Below are positions 1 to 5,445 of a DNA stretch of 5,445 nucleotides, piece after piece. The stretch lies in assembly GCA_947465345.1 (NCBI GenBank), contig CANHZL010000051.1, positions 1 through 5,445 on the forward strand, given 5' to 3'. The DNA comes from Opitutia bacterium (GTDB lineage: Bacteria > Verrucomicrobiota > Verrucomicrobiae > Opitutales > UBA953). The translations under genes and the position numbers were made by a program. Each line of letters starts with the position of its first letter. The first letter of the stretch is position 1. The notes under the pieces are model-generated. The model was not told the DNA's origin and did no database searches. It was given only the letters and a program-made list of their open reading frames with translations.

Positions 1-1159
1 CCGCGAGCATCGGGAAACGGATCTTGGGGTCGATGAACAGCTCGACGGGGTCGTAGCCAGGCTTGCGATGGATGTCCACGGTGCGCGCGAAGTCGGGCTC
101 ACCCTGTCCTTCCTCCCACCAGTAATAAGAGAACCAGCTATGGTCGTCGGCGATGACGACGAAGTCGCCGCTGCGCACATGCTTGATGCCGGCAGCGGCC
201 TGGCCTTCGGCGTCGAGCACCTGGGCGACGCCGGGCGTGGCGAGCAGGACTTTGCGGACGGCTTCGCGAACCGACGGATCAAGGACCACGACATGCGCGA
301 TCTGGTGGTCGACCACGGCGAAGGCCTTGGAGTTGAAGGTATCGAGCGTCAGGCTGCCGTCCTCGGGCTTGAGCTCGAGCCAGTCGTGCGCACGCAGGAC
401 CTTGTTCAGCGGGACGGCGCGGTCGACGGCGGTGATGGCGTATTCGGAGACGATGAGGACTTCGACGCCGCGGGCTTCGAGGAACTCGGCGAGGTCACCG
501 ACGAGCTTATCGACGTCACGACGCGCGGTATCGCAGCGCGCATCGTCCGGTCCGAAGCGCTGGAGGTCGTAATCGAGGTGTGGCAGGTAGACCAGGCTGA
601 GGTCGGGCTGCTCGTGCTCTTCAATCCAGCGAGCCGAATCAGCGATCCACTGCGATGACGGCAAGCCGGCACGTGGGCCCCAGAACGAATGGAACGGGAA
701 ATCGCCGAGATCGCGCTTGAGCAGTTCCTTGTAGCGCTGCGGGTAGCTCGCGATGTCGAGGATCTTCCCGCCATCGGCCTTATAGACCGGGCGTGGCGTG
801 ACGGAGATGTCCGCTGCGGTACCCATATTGTACCACCAGAAGAGGTTCGCGACCTTGAGCTTAGGGTTCTTGGCGTGCAGTTCGTCCCAGACCTTCGGGG
901 CGAGCACGACGCGGTTCGACTGCTTCCAGAACTGCACCTCGCTGAGCGTGCGGTCGTACCAGCCATTACCGACGATACCATGCACGCTCGGTTGCTTGCC
1001 CGTCAGGTAATCGGACTGCGCGGTGCAGGTGACGGCCGGGAACGCGGGGCGCACCTTCGCGACGCTGCCCTTGGCAGCACGGGCGGCGAGGCGCGGCATG
1101 ACGCCGGAACTCAGGTCCCGGGCGGAGAGACCGACAACGTTCAGGACCGCGCGACGCAT
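1..1159 (-). CDS. eboF: EboF-like alkaline phosphatase/nucleotide pyrophosphatase superfamily protein (3' end cut off by window)
   Basis: An open frame runs from the ATG at 1159-1157 to the left edge without a stop, giving 386 residues; the C-terminus is outside the window. The start is chosen because the protein then opens MRRAVLNVVGL, the expected first beta strand of the fold. No signal peptide is visible, so it should be cytoplasmic, unlike most alkaline phosphatases. FPAVT at 40-44 followed by TG (53-54) and HG (60-61) matches the nucleophile region of nucleotide pyrophosphatases, with Thr44 as the candidate nucleophile. Later landmarks are PHLDYDLQRFGPD (193-205), SEYAIT (238-243), DHQIAH (284-289) and DIHRKPGYDP (362-371). 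By hand alignment several usual metal ligands are changed (Val9, Gln200, Glu239, Tyr240), so phosphatase activity is not assured. The start lies inside the 3' end of the cyclase gene (19-nt overlap), which suggests translational coupling. Family assignment is firm; the reaction is unknown. Confidence 0.85.
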   Translation of the reverse strand, partial: MRRAVLNVVGLSARDLSSGVMPRLAARAAKGSVAKVRPAFPAVTCTAQSDYLTGKQPSVHGIVGNGWYDRTLSEVQFWKQSNRVVLAPKVWDELHAKNPKLKVANLFWWYNMGTAADISVTPRPVYKADGGKILDIASYPQRYKELLKRDLGDFPFHSFWGPRAGLPSSQWIADSARWIEEHEQPDLSLVYLPHLDYDLQRFGPDDARCDTARRDVDKLVGDLAEFLEARGVEVLIVSEYAITAVDRAVPLNKVLRAHDWLELKPEDGSLTLDTFNSKAFAVVDHQIAHVVVLDPSVREAVRKVLLATPGVAQVLDAEGQAAAGIKHVRSGDFVVIADDHSWFSYYWWEEGQGEPDFARTVDIHRKPGYDPVELFIDPKIRFPMLA

Positions 1160-2292
1160 GGCTGCTGATCCCGCGCCCGCAGTTCGTCAGCAGCCTTGCG
1201 CACGATGGCGGAAGCCATCTCGTGGACCTGCGTGGACTTACCGATGGCGGTCGGCAGGACGAGCGTGAGCTGGCCGCCGAGGTGTTCACGGAATTCTTCG
1301 AGGCCGGCCAGCATCGGCGCGCCACCTTCGAGGTGCATCTCGGGCGCGTAGATCTTGAAGCCGAGGGCCACGAGCAGGTTGAGCGAGCGTTCCGTCTCTT
1401 CCTTACCGAAAAGCCCGAGCTCACGGGCGCAGATCAGGTCGAGCGCTAGGCCGACGGCCACGGCCTCGCCGTGCGTCAGGCGATGCTGGGTCATCGACTC
1501 GAGCTTATGCGCGGCCCAATGGCCAAGGTCGAGGGGACGGGCGCTGCCGAGTTCGAAAGGGTCGCCATTGCCGGCGATGTGCTTCGCGTGCAGTTCGGCG
1601 GAGCGACGGACGGCGCGGCCGATGGCGGGGATGTTCCCGGCAGCAAGTAGCGCGGACTCCTTCTCGAGGTTGGCGAAGAAGACCGGGTCCTTGAGGAGCG
1701 AGACCTTCACGGCCTCGACGAGCCCGTCACGCAGGCCGCGAGCGTCCAGCGAGGCGAGTAACGCGAGGTCGTTGACGACGGCGGCCGGCACGGCGAAGGC
1801 GCCGGTGAAGTTCTTCTTACCAAAGGTATTGATGCCGTTCTTCACGCCGACGCCGGCATCGCCCTGACCGAGGGTCGTGGTGGGCATACGCACGAGACGC
1901 ACGCCACGGTGGGCGGTGGCGGCCGCAAAACCGACGGCGTCGAGGAAGGCGCCGCCACCGATGGCGAGGACGTAGGAGTGGCGGCAGATCTTGTCGGCCT
2001 CGATTGCGGCCAGAGCGGCCTTGACGACGGCGGAGTCCTTCTTGGCGGCCTCACCGCCGGTGAGCACGAGGGGCGCGCGGGTGAAGTGAATGGCCATGGC
2101 CTTGCCGTAGGCGGCGACCTCGGTAGCGAAGCCCGGACGGGAGTTGGCCAGGCCGGCGTCGACAATCGGGATGACCTTGGCCCCGGCGAAGAGGTCGGCG
2201 AGCACACGGTTACCCGCAGCAAACGCGCCTTCGGTGAAGAAGATGCGATGGCGGTAGGTTACCGCGAATTCGAGGTCAAGGGAGTCGTCCAT
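1141..2292 (-). CDS. eboD: EboD-like 3-dehydroquinate synthase family sugar-phosphate cyclase
   Basis: This encodes 383 residues in the dehydroquinate synthase fold, whose members use NAD+ and a divalent metal to cyclise a sugar phosphate. Visible motifs are TGGEAAK (78-84), the nucleotide-binding AIGGGAFLD (110-118), PTTTLGQGDAGVGVKNGIN (137-155), ExxK at Glu193/Lys196, LDLGHWAAHKLE (254-265) and HGEAVAVG (274-281). Glu193, His258 and His274 fall where the three metal ligands lie in fungal dehydroquinate synthase, with the same His-to-His spacing of 16, so the site looks intact. The DSSVGGKT signature of true dehydroquinate synthase is replaced by DAGVGVKN, nearer to sedoheptulose-7-phosphate-type cyclases, so shikimate synthesis is unlikely. 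I chose the ATG at 2292 although the frame stays open to 2760: the upstream 156 codons overlap the prenyltransferase gene, are Arg/Pro-rich and resemble nothing. No clear Shine-Dalgarno is seen. The substrate is unknown. Confidence 0.9.
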   Translation of the reverse strand: MDDSLDLEFAVTYRHRIFFTEGAFAAGNRVLADLFAGAKVIPIVDAGLANSRPGFATEVAAYGKAMAIHFTRAPLVLTGGEAAKKDSAVVKAALAAIEADKICRHSYVLAIGGGAFLDAVGFAAATAHRGVRLVRMPTTTLGQGDAGVGVKNGINTFGKKNFTGAFAVPAAVVNDLALLASLDARGLRDGLVEAVKVSLLKDPVFFANLEKESALLAAGNIPAIGRAVRRSAELHAKHIAGNGDPFELGSARPLDLGHWAAHKLESMTQHRLTHGEAVAVGLALDLICARELGLFGKEETERSLNLLVALGFKIYAPEMHLEGGAPMLAGLEEFREHLGGQLTLVLPTAIGKSTQVHEMASAIVRKAADELRARDQQPCVARS

Positions 2293-2387
2293 AGCCCTGG
2301 GGGAGGGTTTATCAGAAGAGGTTAGACGCCTGAGGACAAGCCAAGTTCCCAACTTCGGCCTTCGTAAAGGCCCCAAACCCGGCCGAA
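2293..2387. other. eboC-eboD intergenic spacer with small hairpins
   Basis: These 95 nt are the only sizeable gap in the cluster. Three short perfect inverted repeats are visible: AAGTT/AACTT (2343-2347 and 2351-2355, 3-nt loop); GGCCTT/AAGGCC (2357-2362 and 2367-2372, 4-nt loop); and CGGCC/GGCCG (2356-2360 and 2381-2385), which competes with the second. None is followed by a run of T on the minus strand, so I do not call an intrinsic terminator. Stems this short arise often in GC-rich DNA. The spacer could carry a processing site, an internal promoter or nothing. Confidence 0.35.
2311..2339 (-). promoter_or_regulatory. Weak sigma70-like promoter candidate before eboD
   Basis: On the minus strand TTGTCC (2339-2334) and TCTGAT (2316-2311) are separated by 17 bp; each matches the sigma70 consensus at four of six positions. 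Transcription would begin near 2304, leaving a leader of only about 12 nt before the eboD ATG. This fits an internal promoter that decouples the cyclase and EboF from the upstream genes, but matches of this quality occur by chance, and promoter consensus in this lineage is unknown. Confidence 0.18.
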
Positions 2388-3386
2388 TCAGGTGGTCGGG
2401 ATCCAGCGACGCAGCAACAGGGTCAGGCCGAACGAGCCGAAAGGCATGATCCAGACAAGCCGCGACGCGAAGACGGCCCAACCCACCTCGACCGAACCTT
2501 CGGTGCCGGAACGCATGTAGCCGACATAATAGAAGAAGATACCCGCCGCGGCGAAGTCGACCAAGGGGAACGCGGCGAGGCGGTCGGCGACCCGGCGGCC
2601 GACGCCGGCGGGCAGAGCGTGGCGGCGGTTCGAGAAAGCGACCCAGGCCCAGAACAGAAGACAGCCGATGAGGGCGGGGCGCGACATGACGTTCACCTCG
2701 GGCAAGAATTGCACGAGGACGAGCGGGACGGGCACGAGATAAAGTAGCCACTCGGCCCACTTGGGCGGCGCGCCGGGTCCAGCTTCATGTCGCGCGACGA
2801 GCGTGATCGAGAACGTCAGCAGCCAAAGCACCGCCGGATATGCGAGCAGCGCGACGAGATTCCAGCCGCGGAAGTGCGGGCCATCGATCAGCCCGCCGAC
2901 AGCGAAGAAACCGATGAGCGGAAGTAACGCGCGGCAGAGCCCCATCACGGCCGGCGCCCAGCTGACGCCCTTATGCCAGCGATCATAGACGAGCACGCTG
3001 GCGACGAGCAGGAGCACGAGGACGAGGGTGATGCCACGATGGCCGCCGAGCGAGGCGGCGACGGTGAACCATGAGCCGAAGGCCAGCGCGAGGCCGCCGA
3101 CAATGAACGCGGACCGCGCGGAGACGATGCCGGCCGGGATCGGTCGGGTGGAACGGCGCTCGGTGTCCCAGCGCGCATCGAAGGCGTCGTTGAGGATCAT
3201 GCCGCCGACGTAGATCAGCGAGACACCGAGGAGCAGCCCAAAAAGCGAGAGTAACAGGCCGTTGGTCCACGGGAAGCGATCGGTGTAGACATAGCCGAGC
3301 AGCCAGCCGCCGACCAGGTTGCTCCAGACCGTCGGCAGGTTCGAGCCACGGGTGAGGATCAGCCAGGCGCGGAGCTTGGCGAACAT
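2388..3386 (-). CDS. eboC: EboC-like UbiA family membrane prenyltransferase
   Basis: This encodes a 332-residue hydrophobic protein with about eight to ten membrane segments, the clearest near 44-65, 93-112, 117-134, 176-197, 211-228, 236-252 and 304-325. UbiA-family enzymes join a polyprenyl diphosphate to an acceptor in the membrane. The first Asp-rich motif is intact: NDAFDARWD (66-74, Asp67, Asp70, Asp74), followed by Arg77 and STRPI (79-83), which normally bind Mg2+-diphosphate. YDRWHKG (134-140) and Arg152 follow. After the segment ending near 197, where UbiA proteins usually carry a second DxxxD, there is only ARHEAG (198-203), so that motif is absent or remodelled. The gene starts one base after the EboE stop (TGAGATG across the junction), implying coupled translation. 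It is the only membrane protein of the set, so the membrane step of the pathway probably happens here. Prenyl donor and acceptor are unknown. Confidence 0.9.
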   Translation of the reverse strand: MFAKLRAWLILTRGSNLPTVWSNLVGGWLLGYVYTDRFPWTNGLLLSLFGLLLGVSLIYVGGMILNDAFDARWDTERRSTRPIPAGIVSARSAFIVGGLALAFGSWFTVAASLGGHRGITLVLVLLLVASVLVYDRWHKGVSWAPAVMGLCRALLPLIGFFAVGGLIDGPHFRGWNLVALLAYPAVLWLLTFSITLVARHEAGPGAPPKWAEWLLYLVPVPLVLVQFLPEVNVMSRPALIGCLLFWAWVAFSNRRHALPAGVGRRVADRLAAFPLVDFAAAGIFFYYVGYMRSGTEGSVEVGWAVFASRLVWIMPFGSFGLTLLLRRWIPTT

Positions 3387-3387
3387 C

Positions 3388-4560
3388 TCAGAGGGGCTTC
3401 ACGCCACGCTGCGCGAGTTCAGCGAGCGTCCAGCGATATTCTTCGGCAATCATGTCGGCGACATCGGCCGCGCGGACTTCGGGCGGCAGGACTTCCCAGG
3501 TATACGTCTCGATCTCGAGCTCGCGACAAGCGCCGGGCGCCTTGGCGATGACATCAAGCGCGGCCTTGAGGTGGTCGTTCGTCGTGGAGAGTTCATCGGA
3601 CAGTCGGTCGGCGTTGACCGGCACATGGAAGTGCACGCGGAGTTCCTCGAGCGCGCGGAGCTGATCAATCGCCGCCATGGCGAACGGGATGTCCTTGAAG
3701 CGCACGATGGAGCCGTCCTTCGCCCGACCCATGGTCTGGTGCAGGTACGTGGGCTCGTGCATCTTCGCGAGGCGCGCGAGGGCGACCTCGGTGGGCTTTA
3801 ACTTCAGCGCGGAGCTGAGATGGAACTTAAGCACGGGCGCGCCGCCGGCGTTGAGTCGGGCGATAGCCTCATGGGCTTCTTCGTATTGCAGCGCGAAGTG
3901 GCAGGTGTCGTAGGCGATGCCGAGGTGGGCGTCGACGAGGCCCTTGGCAGGCTCTTCAGCGCGAAGCTGTTCGAAGAGGCGCAGCGCTTCGGGCGTGTTC
4001 TCGGCGTGGCCGATCGGCTCAGGCTCGAGCGCAAGGCGCAGGTGCGTGCCGGTGCGATCGCGCAGGCGGGCGAGGTGTTCGGCGCACGCGAGAAGGTTGC
4101 GGCGCATGACCTTGAGCTCGTCGGCATTGCGTCCAAAGCCCTTGAATGAACCCGGCAACGTACTGACGGTGCCGACCTTGTCGGGCGGACCAAATGCGGC
4201 GAGGAGATCGAAGAGACGGTTGGTGTATTCGAGACGCGGCGTCTCGCACCAGTCCGGTGAGAAGACGTTGTCCTTCACGGCCTGGCCGTGGAACGGGCCG
4301 AAGGGGAAGCCGTTAATCCCGGCGACAACGCAGTTCTCTTTGTCCAGCCAGGCGCGGAAAGCCGCGAGCGTGGCGGGCACGGCGAGCTCCTTCGCGGCGA
4401 GGTCGCCGAGGCGGAGGCCGAGGACGTAAGTCTTACCGGGGCAGACGCGGTCGCGCACGCGAAGCGCATGGTCGCGCAGGCCGGCGAACGTCTCGACCCA
4501 CCCTTCGCCGCGATGGACGTTGGTGCAGTAGGCGAGGGAAAGTCCAGACGTGAGCTTCAC
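3388..4560 (-). CDS. eboE: EboE-like xylose-isomerase-type TIM-barrel protein (metabolite traffic protein EboE)
   Basis: This is a 390-residue protein of the xylose isomerase-like TIM-barrel superfamily (sugar-phosphate isomerases/epimerases, AP-endonuclease fold). Family landmarks run in order: LAYCTNVHRGEGW (9-21), NGFPFGPFHG (83-92) with VKDNVFSPDW (95-104), STLPGSFKGFG (133-143), LALEPEP (176-182), YDTCH (217-221), KFHLSSALK (245-253), EPTYLHQ (269-275), VHFHVPV (309-315) and EIETYTWEVLP (349-359). Glu179, Asp218, His221 and Glu351 are plausible metal or acid/base residues at the barrel's C-terminal rim; this is inferred from strand-end positions. The start codon is GTG (4560-4558); no ATG or GTG lies just upstream in frame, and the KLTSGLSLAYCTN opening fits the family. 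The EboB stop is four bases upstream and the EboC start one base downstream. No signal peptide is visible, so it is likely cytoplasmic. The reaction is unproven; the family name reflects its genetic link to metabolite export. Confidence 0.9.
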   Translation of the reverse strand: MKLTSGLSLAYCTNVHRGEGWVETFAGLRDHALRVRDRVCPGKTYVLGLRLGDLAAKELAVPATLAAFRAWLDKENCVVAGINGFPFGPFHGQAVKDNVFSPDWCETPRLEYTNRLFDLLAAFGPPDKVGTVSTLPGSFKGFGRNADELKVMRRNLLACAEHLARLRDRTGTHLRLALEPEPIGHAENTPEALRLFEQLRAEEPAKGLVDAHLGIAYDTCHFALQYEEAHEAIARLNAGGAPVLKFHLSSALKLKPTEVALARLAKMHEPTYLHQTMGRAKDGSIVRFKDIPFAMAAIDQLRALEELRVHFHVPVNADRLSDELSTTNDHLKAALDVIAKAPGACRELEIETYTWEVLPPEVRAADVADMIAEEYRWTLAELAQRGVKPL

Positions 4561-4564
4561 GCGG

Positions 4565-5380
4565 TCAGGCCTGAGCGGCGGGGTCCTTGAAACGCGGCGA
4601 CTGCGAGAGGAACTTCACCGGGTTACCGTAGACGAGGCGATCGATGGCGGCGGCGGAGTGGCCGCGGCGACGCATCTCCTGCGCGGCCTTGGGTACAGAC
4701 AGCGGATCGCTGTGGCCCCAGTCGCACGCGCTATTGAGCCAGACGCGCTGGGCGGAGACGGATTCGATCATGTCGATGGCACGCACGGGCGTGGCCTTCG
4801 ATTCAGGGTAAAGCGTGATGCCGGCCCAGAAACCTTGGTCGAGTACTTCGTGAATCGTGTGCTCTTCCACGTGGTCGATGATGACGCGTTCAGGCTTCAC
4901 GACGCCGTTGGCCTTGAGGCAATCCATGATGAGGCGCGTGCCCTTGCGCTTGTCCTCGAGGTGCGGCGTGTGCACGAGGATCATCTGGTCATACTGCACC
5001 GCGAGGGCGATGTGCTGCTCGAGCACCTTCATCTCGTTGCGCGTGTTCTTATTCAGGCCGATCTCGCCGATGCCGAGCACCGTCGGGGCCTTGAGGAATT
5101 CGGGGACCAGCGCGAGGACGTCAGCGGCGAGCGCCATGTCTTCGGATTCCTTCGGGTTGATGCAGAGCCAGGAGTAATGCGGCAGGCCGTATTTGGCGGC
5201 ACGCTTGGGTTCATGCTGCGTCAGCTGGCAGAAGTAGTCGTAGAAGCCGTCGGCGGACTTGCGGTCGAAGCCGGCCCAGAAGGCGGGCTCGCAGATCGCG
5301 GCGCAGCCCGCGAGGGCCATGGCCTGATAGTCGTCGGTGGTGCGGCTCACCATGTGGCCGTGCGGTTCGATGTAGCGCAT
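4565..5380 (-). CDS. eboB: EboB-like TatD family metal-dependent hydrolase
   Basis: This encodes 271 residues, a normal length for a TatD-type amidohydrolase-superfamily hydrolase. The two-metal site can be traced: HxH near the N-terminus (His7, His9 in EPHGHMVSRTTDDY, 5-18), IGEIGLN (104-110, Glu106), VHTPH (136-140, His137), IDHVEEHT (168-175, His170) and CDWGHSDPL (219-227, Asp220). All expected ligands are present, so an active enzyme is likely. TatD relatives are best known as nucleases, but in ebo clusters this protein accompanies a cyclase and a prenyltransferase, so a small-molecule C-N, C-O or ester bond is the more likely target (inference). The ATG at 5380 puts the HxH strand at the very N-terminus, as the family requires. 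No signal peptide is seen. It lies 9 nt after an upstream gene and 4 nt before EboE, in one transcription unit; no strong Shine-Dalgarno is visible. Confidence 0.9.
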   Translation of the reverse strand: MRYIEPHGHMVSRTTDDYQAMALAGCAAICEPAFWAGFDRKSADGFYDYFCQLTQHEPKRAAKYGLPHYSWLCINPKESEDMALAADVLALVPEFLKAPTVLGIGEIGLNKNTRNEMKVLEQHIALAVQYDQMILVHTPHLEDKRKGTRLIMDCLKANGVVKPERVIIDHVEEHTIHEVLDQGFWAGITLYPESKATPVRAIDMIESVSAQRVWLNSACDWGHSDPLSVPKAAQEMRRRGHSAAAIDRLVYGNPVKFLSQSPRFKDPAAQA

Positions 5381-5389
5381 GGTCGTGGC

Positions 5390-5445
5390 TTACTTGAGGC
5401 CGGGCCAGACGCCCGAGGCGGCCTTGGTGTCGGCCTTTTCGATCG
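5390..5445 (-). CDS. 3' end of an unidentified upstream gene (possibly eboA)
   Basis: Reading the minus strand back from a TAA at 5392-5390, the frame gives 17 residues ending IEKADTKAASGVWPGLK and runs out of the window. The 9-nt gap to the EboB start and same strand suggest it is the preceding gene of the operon. In reference ebo clusters the gene before eboB is eboA, a protein of unknown function, so that is the positional guess. The fragment is too short to recognise and could belong to another gene or be an open frame by chance. Confidence 0.45.
   Translation of the reverse strand, partial: IEKADTKAASGVWPGLK

Follow-up and report, generated by a model that had tools for sequence, protein, structure and literature searches.

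The window analysed here, the whole 5,445-nucleotide stretch of contig CANHZL010000051.1, is most of a six-gene ebo operon of the EboG type, with the order G-B-E-C-D-F, from a freshwater Opitutae bacterium. The ebo cluster occurs in many bacteria and in some algal plastids. All genes lie on the minus strand. The last 17 codons and stop of eboG (IEKADTKAASGVWPGLK*) occupy 5390..5443, the 5' part lying past the window edge; the gene product belongs to protein family A2, and the open reading frame (ORF) at 8802-9170 of a related locus, L022, has the same ending. Downstream, eboB (4565..5380) encodes a TatD-like metallohydrolase of 271 residues (Pfam TatD_DNase), and eboE (3388..4560), which has a GTG start, encodes a xylose-isomerase-like TIM barrel of 390 residues (Pfam AP_endonuc_2; NCBIfam NF035939). 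The class 1 allele of eboC (2388..3386) specifies a membrane prenyltransferase of the UbiA superfamily, 332 residues long, assigned by Pfam UbiA, NCBIfam and a structure model. It is followed by eboD (1141..2292), a sugar phosphate cyclase of 383 residues (Pfam DHQ_synthase N and C; NF004852; alignments), and by eboF (2..1159), a member of the phosphodiesterase/alkaline phosphatase superfamily (Pfam Phosphodiest) that is cut by the window edge, with the first 386 of its 454 residues inside. The five long ORFs stand head to tail, separated by 4, 1 and 95 bases except at eboD and eboF, where the start of eboF overlaps the end of eboD by 19 bases.

A preliminary description, made from the letters alone, had placed five Ebo proteins (B, E, C, D and F) on one strand, and this was borne out by the minus-strand ORFs, by Pfam and NCBIfam and by related loci; the families it had named agree with the Pfam matches TatD_DNase, AP_endonuc_2, UbiA, DHQ_synthase and Phosphodiest. 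The allelic variation of eboC, the replacement of EboD and the loss of metal ligands in EboF, all described below, are points absent from that description. EboE clears the curated NCBIfam EboE model with 400 bits against a cut-off of 250, and EboD clears NF004852, a model labelled 3-dehydroquinate synthase, with 476 bits against 333. The top NCBIfam model for EboC is the EboC model (NF035940), and its 105 bits lie below the curated cut-off of 250; the EboC of Aureibacter, in contrast, passes with 342 bits. Four other alleles of the class score 94-109, Deinococcus 96 (its own best model being SCO3242) and Azospirillum 89, so the cut-off spans only part of EboC. EboB and EboF were without a match to any ebo-specific NCBIfam model. 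Because the same proteins recur in the same order in related loci, the arrangement is not a chance one and, with EboB, EboC, EboD, EboE and EboF encoded together, it is virtually certain that the window is an ebo cluster.

Related loci were drawn from contigs representing one genome per species, and 31 of them have a close EboE; 29 of these are titled Opitutae, Opitutia, Opitutales, Opitutus or Verrucomicrobia. Among long DNA matches, the window is nearest to L003 (92.1% over 4,592 bases) and L002 (90.6% over 5,448). Within the genus of L022, an EboE match was obtained in 41 of 55 genomes, 36 of them over the cut-off. Verrucomicrobia, searched as the string 'Verrucomicrobi', are named nowhere in the main text of PMC5133447 and PMC6282210.

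The sixth gene is small: relatives of EboG are about 100 residues long, and the EboG of L020 matched nothing in Pfam or NCBIfam at E 0.001. eboG was found in 25 of the 31 close-EboE loci, the other six beginning inside or just before eboE. It lies upstream of eboB across the genus and appears at 42-55% identity in 12 of 30 loci of the class, which extend only about 1.5 kb past EboE. The protein in the same slot in Deinococcus matches family A2 with an hhalign probability of 98.8, and a second Deinococcus cluster has the same layout. Passages of PMC5133447 describe Deinococcus clusters in which EboG replaces EboA and report that the two are unrelated; the slot protein is equated with that EboG by its description there, not by an accession list. 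Given the C-terminal codons at 5390-5443, the position of eboG upstream of eboB across the genus and the homology of the Deinococcus slot protein, there is little doubt that the operon is the EboG variant, in which EboG stands in the cluster in place of EboA. The earlier suggestion of a near-complete cluster with eboA past the edge fails on this point: the sixth gene is eboG instead. An eboA beyond the window edge was dropped as a candidate on the related loci and the Deinococcus homology, which place eboG there; EboA (NF035938) matched in none of 55 genus genomes, in a search whose positive control gave no match anywhere. As modelled (pLDDT 76, pTM 0.48), EboG has three helices, too weak a model for a fold search, and is probably a small helical accessory protein.

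All six proteins are shared with the EboG variant reported from Deinococcus, Herpetosiphon and others in passages of PMC5133447. The gene order differs, being G-B-E-C-D-F here and D-G-B-E-C-F in two Deinococcus clusters, and eboC here is multi-allelic. The EboA variant (Nostoc, Bacteroidota, eustigmatophyte plastids) has homologous EboB, EboE, EboC, EboD and EboF, and carries EboA where EboG stands in this operon.

Alleles of eboC were then compared across loci. An EboC of 300 residues or more is available from 38 loci, which fall into 14 groups by single linkage at 75%. A core set was formed of the 17 loci, the window included, with an EboE that matches the window's at 94% identity or more; two of them, L005 and L023, come from one metagenome-assembled genome, G021. 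The core loci hold three EboC classes, of 9, 5 and 3 loci. EboC identity averages 83.6% in same-class pairs (49 pairs) and 55.3% in different-class pairs (87 pairs, range 50.0-60.7%). The corresponding same- and different-class means are 94.7 and 92.5% for EboG, 97.2 and 96.7% for EboB, 97.1 and 95.9% for EboE, 95.1 and 92.8% for EboD, and 90.8 and 87.8% for EboF; for EboB, EboE and EboD most values exceed 90%. L029, a locus with incomplete reading frames, supplies all of the lowest EboD and EboF pair values; without it the lowest different-class values become 91.6% (EboD) and 80.2% (EboF), rising to 93.2% and 89.6% when L026 is left out too. Between the window and L022, EboB, EboE, EboD and EboF are 100, 98, 96 and 95% identical, but EboC is 56% identical. 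The segment that differs between the eboC classes, mapped by megablast and by identity in 60-base bins against the L022 locus, is 2351..3296 on the minus strand: the 90% DNA identity to L022 breaks at 3296, about 30 codons into eboC, and at 2351, about 37 bases past the eboC stop.

When the classes were placed on a tree of the four other genes, 14 core loci required 5 changes, against a mean of 5.4 in shuffles and a possible minimum of 2, and eboC class is thus independent of the descent of its neighbours. The EboE tree alone required 4 changes (8% of shuffles were as low) and the EboD tree 5. Synonymous distances agree with exchange: between L005 and L010 the distance is 0.26 for eboC and 0.57-1.14 for the other three genes compared, and between L001 and L022 it is 1.09 for eboC and 0.31-0.37 for the other genes. 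As controls, two UbiA paralogs, heme O synthase and MenA (both over their cut-offs in G001), were drawn from 13 and 12 of the genomes already compared, the paralogs of G021 being excluded from the pair counts. Their same- and different-class means are 84.4 and 83.6% for heme O synthase and 82.8 and 80.3% for MenA, with a lowest pair of 62%, compared with 83.9 and 55.9% for EboC. Fast drift was rejected as the cause of the variation, since same-class EboC is like the controls and the gap exists only between classes. Within-class eboC dN/dS is about 0.08-0.20 for the pairs computed, so each class is constrained. We are highly confident that the eboC alleles are real and have been exchanged between species. 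No report of eboC alleles within a genus was found in the searchable literature, subscription papers and preprints lying outside the search; replacement of eboC between phyla is already proposed in passages of PMC5133447. The two ebo loci of G021 have different eboC classes and are 89.8% identical in EboE DNA, which suggests either a mixed bin or two copies.

At least two loci are exchanged in the genus, and eboC is one of them. Some 2-4 kb upstream lies an MFS gene with two alleles that are 37% alike, spread independently of eboC class and shared across species (L005, L016 and L026 versus L006, L007, L009, L015, L018, L020, L021 and L022). The eboF genes of L016 and L026 are 82-84% identical to the window's and 91% to each other, a sign of eboF exchange. 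Each ebo gene alignment also rejects the trees of the other genes (approximately unbiased (AU) test, five alignments), from which it follows that recombination is widespread in the genus; eboC shows the greatest misfit, with a delta logL of 1271-1714 against 37-562 for the other four alignments. The MFS alleles, the eboF of L016 and L026 and the AU test led us to reject eboC as the sole exchanged gene. No class effect was seen in the Gfo/Idh gene (5 loci), the PAS-AraC gene (9) or the downstream heme protein (11).

The alleles could stem from selection acting on an inner-membrane protein, or simply from recombination, with the same chemistry in all classes, for example through phage DNA entry or the drift of a tolerant membrane protein. 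This explanation is a serious contender, somewhat short of an even chance, and both the two upstream MFS alleles and the mutual incongruence of the ebo gene trees favour it. The distribution of variation in 27 EboC sequences fits it too: with the topology inferred from motifs, the periplasmic loops and outer helix halves are variable (mean entropy 1.98, none of 36 positions invariant) and the cytoplasmic loops conserved (0.61, 41 of 95 invariant), although such a gradient may be normal for the UbiA superfamily. What speaks against it is that the interspecies similarity of EboC within a class matches that of heme O synthase and MenA, which lack the class gap, and that each class is under constraint, as the dN/dS values indicate. 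That the alleles alter the product is possible but on balance unlikely.

The EboC model was of good quality (pLDDT 90.9, pTM 0.90, 58 sequences), and the fold ranking by Foldseek and VIA-align put digeranylgeranylglyceryl phosphate (DGGGP) synthase (6m31) first, followed by UbiA homologs, UBIAD1 and a membrane phosphoribosyltransferase. The acceptor of DGGGP synthase is non-aromatic. The first Asp motif, NDxxDxxxD, is invariant across the 58-sequence EboC alignment. UbiA enzymes carry a second Asp motif at the site where EboC has TxxARxE, and this motif is likewise replaced by TxxARxE relative to DGGGP synthase (PDB 6m31, 7bpu); the Thr, Ala and Glu are kept in all seven EboC proteins compared, from four phyla.

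EboD, one of the sugar phosphate cyclases, was aligned to a 3-dehydroquinate synthase (DHQS; 6lk2) and to 4p53, the EEVS ValA. Three DHQS residues at substrate positions, Lys, Arg and Asn, correspond to His235, Ala251 and Asp255 in EboD. Asp255 is common to 4p53, and the His and Asp are invariant in seven of seven EboD proteins.

The genes next to EboB were examined in 51 plasmid records with an EboB relative, in which the window EboB is 57% identical to two Deinococcus records, 60% to Gemmatirosa and 39-44% to the other 48. Matches to EboD and to inositol-3-phosphate synthase (MIPS) were the best 60 of 115 and the best 60 of 79 records. Among the matches listed, EboD lies within 5 kb of EboB in 16 of the 51 records (Deinococcus 2, Gloeothece, Azospirillum, Aureibacter, Mycetohabitans 3, Salipiger 2, Roseivivax, Ketogulonicigenium 5) and MIPS in 32 (Streptomyces 25, Embleya 2, Nonomuraea, Gemmatirosa, Halobaculum, Halocatena, Natronococcus), and the two occur together in none. 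Seventeen records were viewed as loci (7 with MIPS, 7 with EboD and 3 with neither). A sugar phosphate isomerase (E 1e-8) was present in all seven MIPS clusters and in none of nine EboD clusters (the seven plasmid loci with L020 and L022). MIPS occurs in EboA-type (Streptomyces), EboG-type (Gemmatirosa L130) and haloarchaeal clusters; since it is found both with EboA and with EboG, the replacement was repeated or moved between variants. The MIPS-type clusters of Streptomyces and haloarchaea consist of a SCO3242-family or UbiA-family prenyltransferase, MIPS, the isomerase, EboB and EboF, those of Streptomyces having EboA and EboE in addition. They share with the present operon the grouping of EboB, an EboC-like protein and EboF, and differ in having MIPS where the operon has EboD and in the extra isomerase. 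In three of the Streptomyces clusters (L181, L182 and L183) the first gene is of the ScyD/ScyE family and a multicopper oxidase lies close to the opposite end, which recalls the scytonemin link.

Because a non-homologous, known cyclitol synthase takes its place, EboD very probably makes a cyclitol ring. No report of the replacement was found in the literature search described above, and the word inositol does not occur in PMC5133447. In the class, 106 genomes have EboE over the cut-off, and 80 were searched for EboD; those set aside were G077, nine genomes with low scores, thirteen in which EboE stands alone and three from the focal genus. The cut-off of NF004852 was passed by an EboD in 78 of the 80, compared with 1 of 60 EboE-free genomes (20 named negatives and 40 negative by elimination from the full list of positives). 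A MIPS match was obtained in one of the 80, on another contig, and that genome has EboD too.

The single solved relative found for EboB was 3guw, and EboE matched no solved structure by sequence at E 0.001; the EboE superfamily includes the inosose enzymes IolI and IolE. EboF was aligned to the nucleotide pyrophosphatase/phosphodiesterase (NPP) 2gsn, in which Asp54, His214, Asp257 and His258 are metal ligands. EboF has Val, Gln, Glu and Tyr at these positions, keeping the nucleophile Thr90 and Asp210, and the same substitutions are found in six of six EboF proteins from four phyla (L020, L022, L128, L129, L132 and L133). With the four usual NPP metal ligands replaced, the two-metal ligand set that defines an NPP is absent, and the phosphodiesterase label is doubtful; from these residues, EboF is probably not a standard two-metal phosphodiesterase.

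Taken as a whole, the operon is best explained, with confidence only a little above even, as making a membrane-anchored prenylated cyclitol. EboD would close a sugar phosphate into a keto-cyclitol ring, which EboE would rearrange. EboC, with its prenyltransferase fold and first Asp motif, would add a prenyl chain in the membrane from an active site on the cytoplasmic face, and EboB and EboF would carry out trimming or transfer steps. In other ebo-bearing organisms the ring step would fall to MIPS, with the sugar phosphate isomerase, in EboD's place. In this genus, species exchange eboC in allelic form with little change in the genes around it, so that related species would probably differ in the tail, the attachment point or the partner of one and the same ring. 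The preliminary description had offered a prenylated cyclitol as one explanation, which the replacement of EboD by MIPS supports; passages of PMC5133447 already contain the idea, with a cyclitol from sedoheptulose 7-phosphate, and it is taken up in passages of PMC6282210.

Several observations weigh against this scheme, in addition to the incongruent trees and MFS alleles above. Neither EboD nor MIPS was found in 3 of the 51 plasmid records (Haladaptatus, Streptomyces NBC_01340 and NBC_01562) across the 18-19 kb examined, and the sample is uneven, Streptomyces supplying 25 of the 32 MIPS records. Two of the 80 EboE genomes have neither EboD over the cut-off nor MIPS. EboD lies far from EboE in 65 of the 78 genomes and within about 3 kb in 13, so that the association is more a matter of co-occurrence than of a shared operon. 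The TxxARxE motif in place of the second Asp motif may mean that EboC catalyses a different reaction. Finally, the EboC relative Ubi-297 of Maribacter farnesylates quinoline acids in vitro, preferring 8-hydroxyquinoline-2-carboxylic acid, an aromatic acceptor (passages of PMC9235831).

Ubi-297 raises the alternative that other genes provide EboC with an aromatic or indole-type acceptor to prenylate, the cyclitol being a separate head group or not made. The links to known biology that the preliminary description had drawn are supported by passages of PMC5133447 and PMC6282210, and one of them fits this alternative: Nostoc ebo genes act in export of the scytonemin monomer (PMC6282210). Another is nematode resistance, from work on Pseudomonas fluorescens cited there. 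The fold of EboC is nearest to that of DGGGP synthase, no aromatic-biosynthesis enzyme matched among the scanned neighbours of the L020 operon, and a ring synthase, EboD or MIPS, stands beside EboB in 48 of 51 plasmid records among the matches listed; we consider an aromatic acceptor improbable. A side operon of the shikimate or ubiquinone pathways with EboD as an extra DHQS, as NF004852 and public annotation name it and as the preliminary description had foreseen as a refuting outcome, is rejected as extremely improbable, given that EboD scores 194 bits against the AroB cut-off of 305 (TIGR01357), that 47 of 55 genus genomes have an AroB over this cut-off at another site with EboD below it, that its substrate site differs from that of DHQS, and that MIPS replaces it in other clusters.

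An extension of the prenylated-cyclitol scheme, which we regard as rather unlikely, is that the ebo pathway yields a surface or periplasmic lipid that determines type. Its cyclitol head, made by EboD or MIPS, would be conserved and its prenyl part set by an eboC exchanged between species in the manner of a serotype gene, with grazers, phages or competitors selecting rare types. The use of either EboD or MIPS points to a cyclitol, and offers Streptomyces and haloarchaea as hosts for feeding of labelled inositol. The eboC alleles are natural variants of one enzyme in very similar operons, a means of finding out which portion of the product depends on EboC.

In another genus, 15 genomes (L139-L153) have an EboE homolog 35-38% identical to the window EboE, with no other ebo gene detected beside it in 9-14 kb. 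Two contigs titled Akkermansia muciniphila and Polynucleobacter meluiroseus (L006 and L027) bear the Opitutae operon and are probably mislabelled bins. At L020, eboF is followed by a PVC-type CxxCH heme protein of about 1,020 residues (14818-17886), which has homologs in 12 other compared loci.

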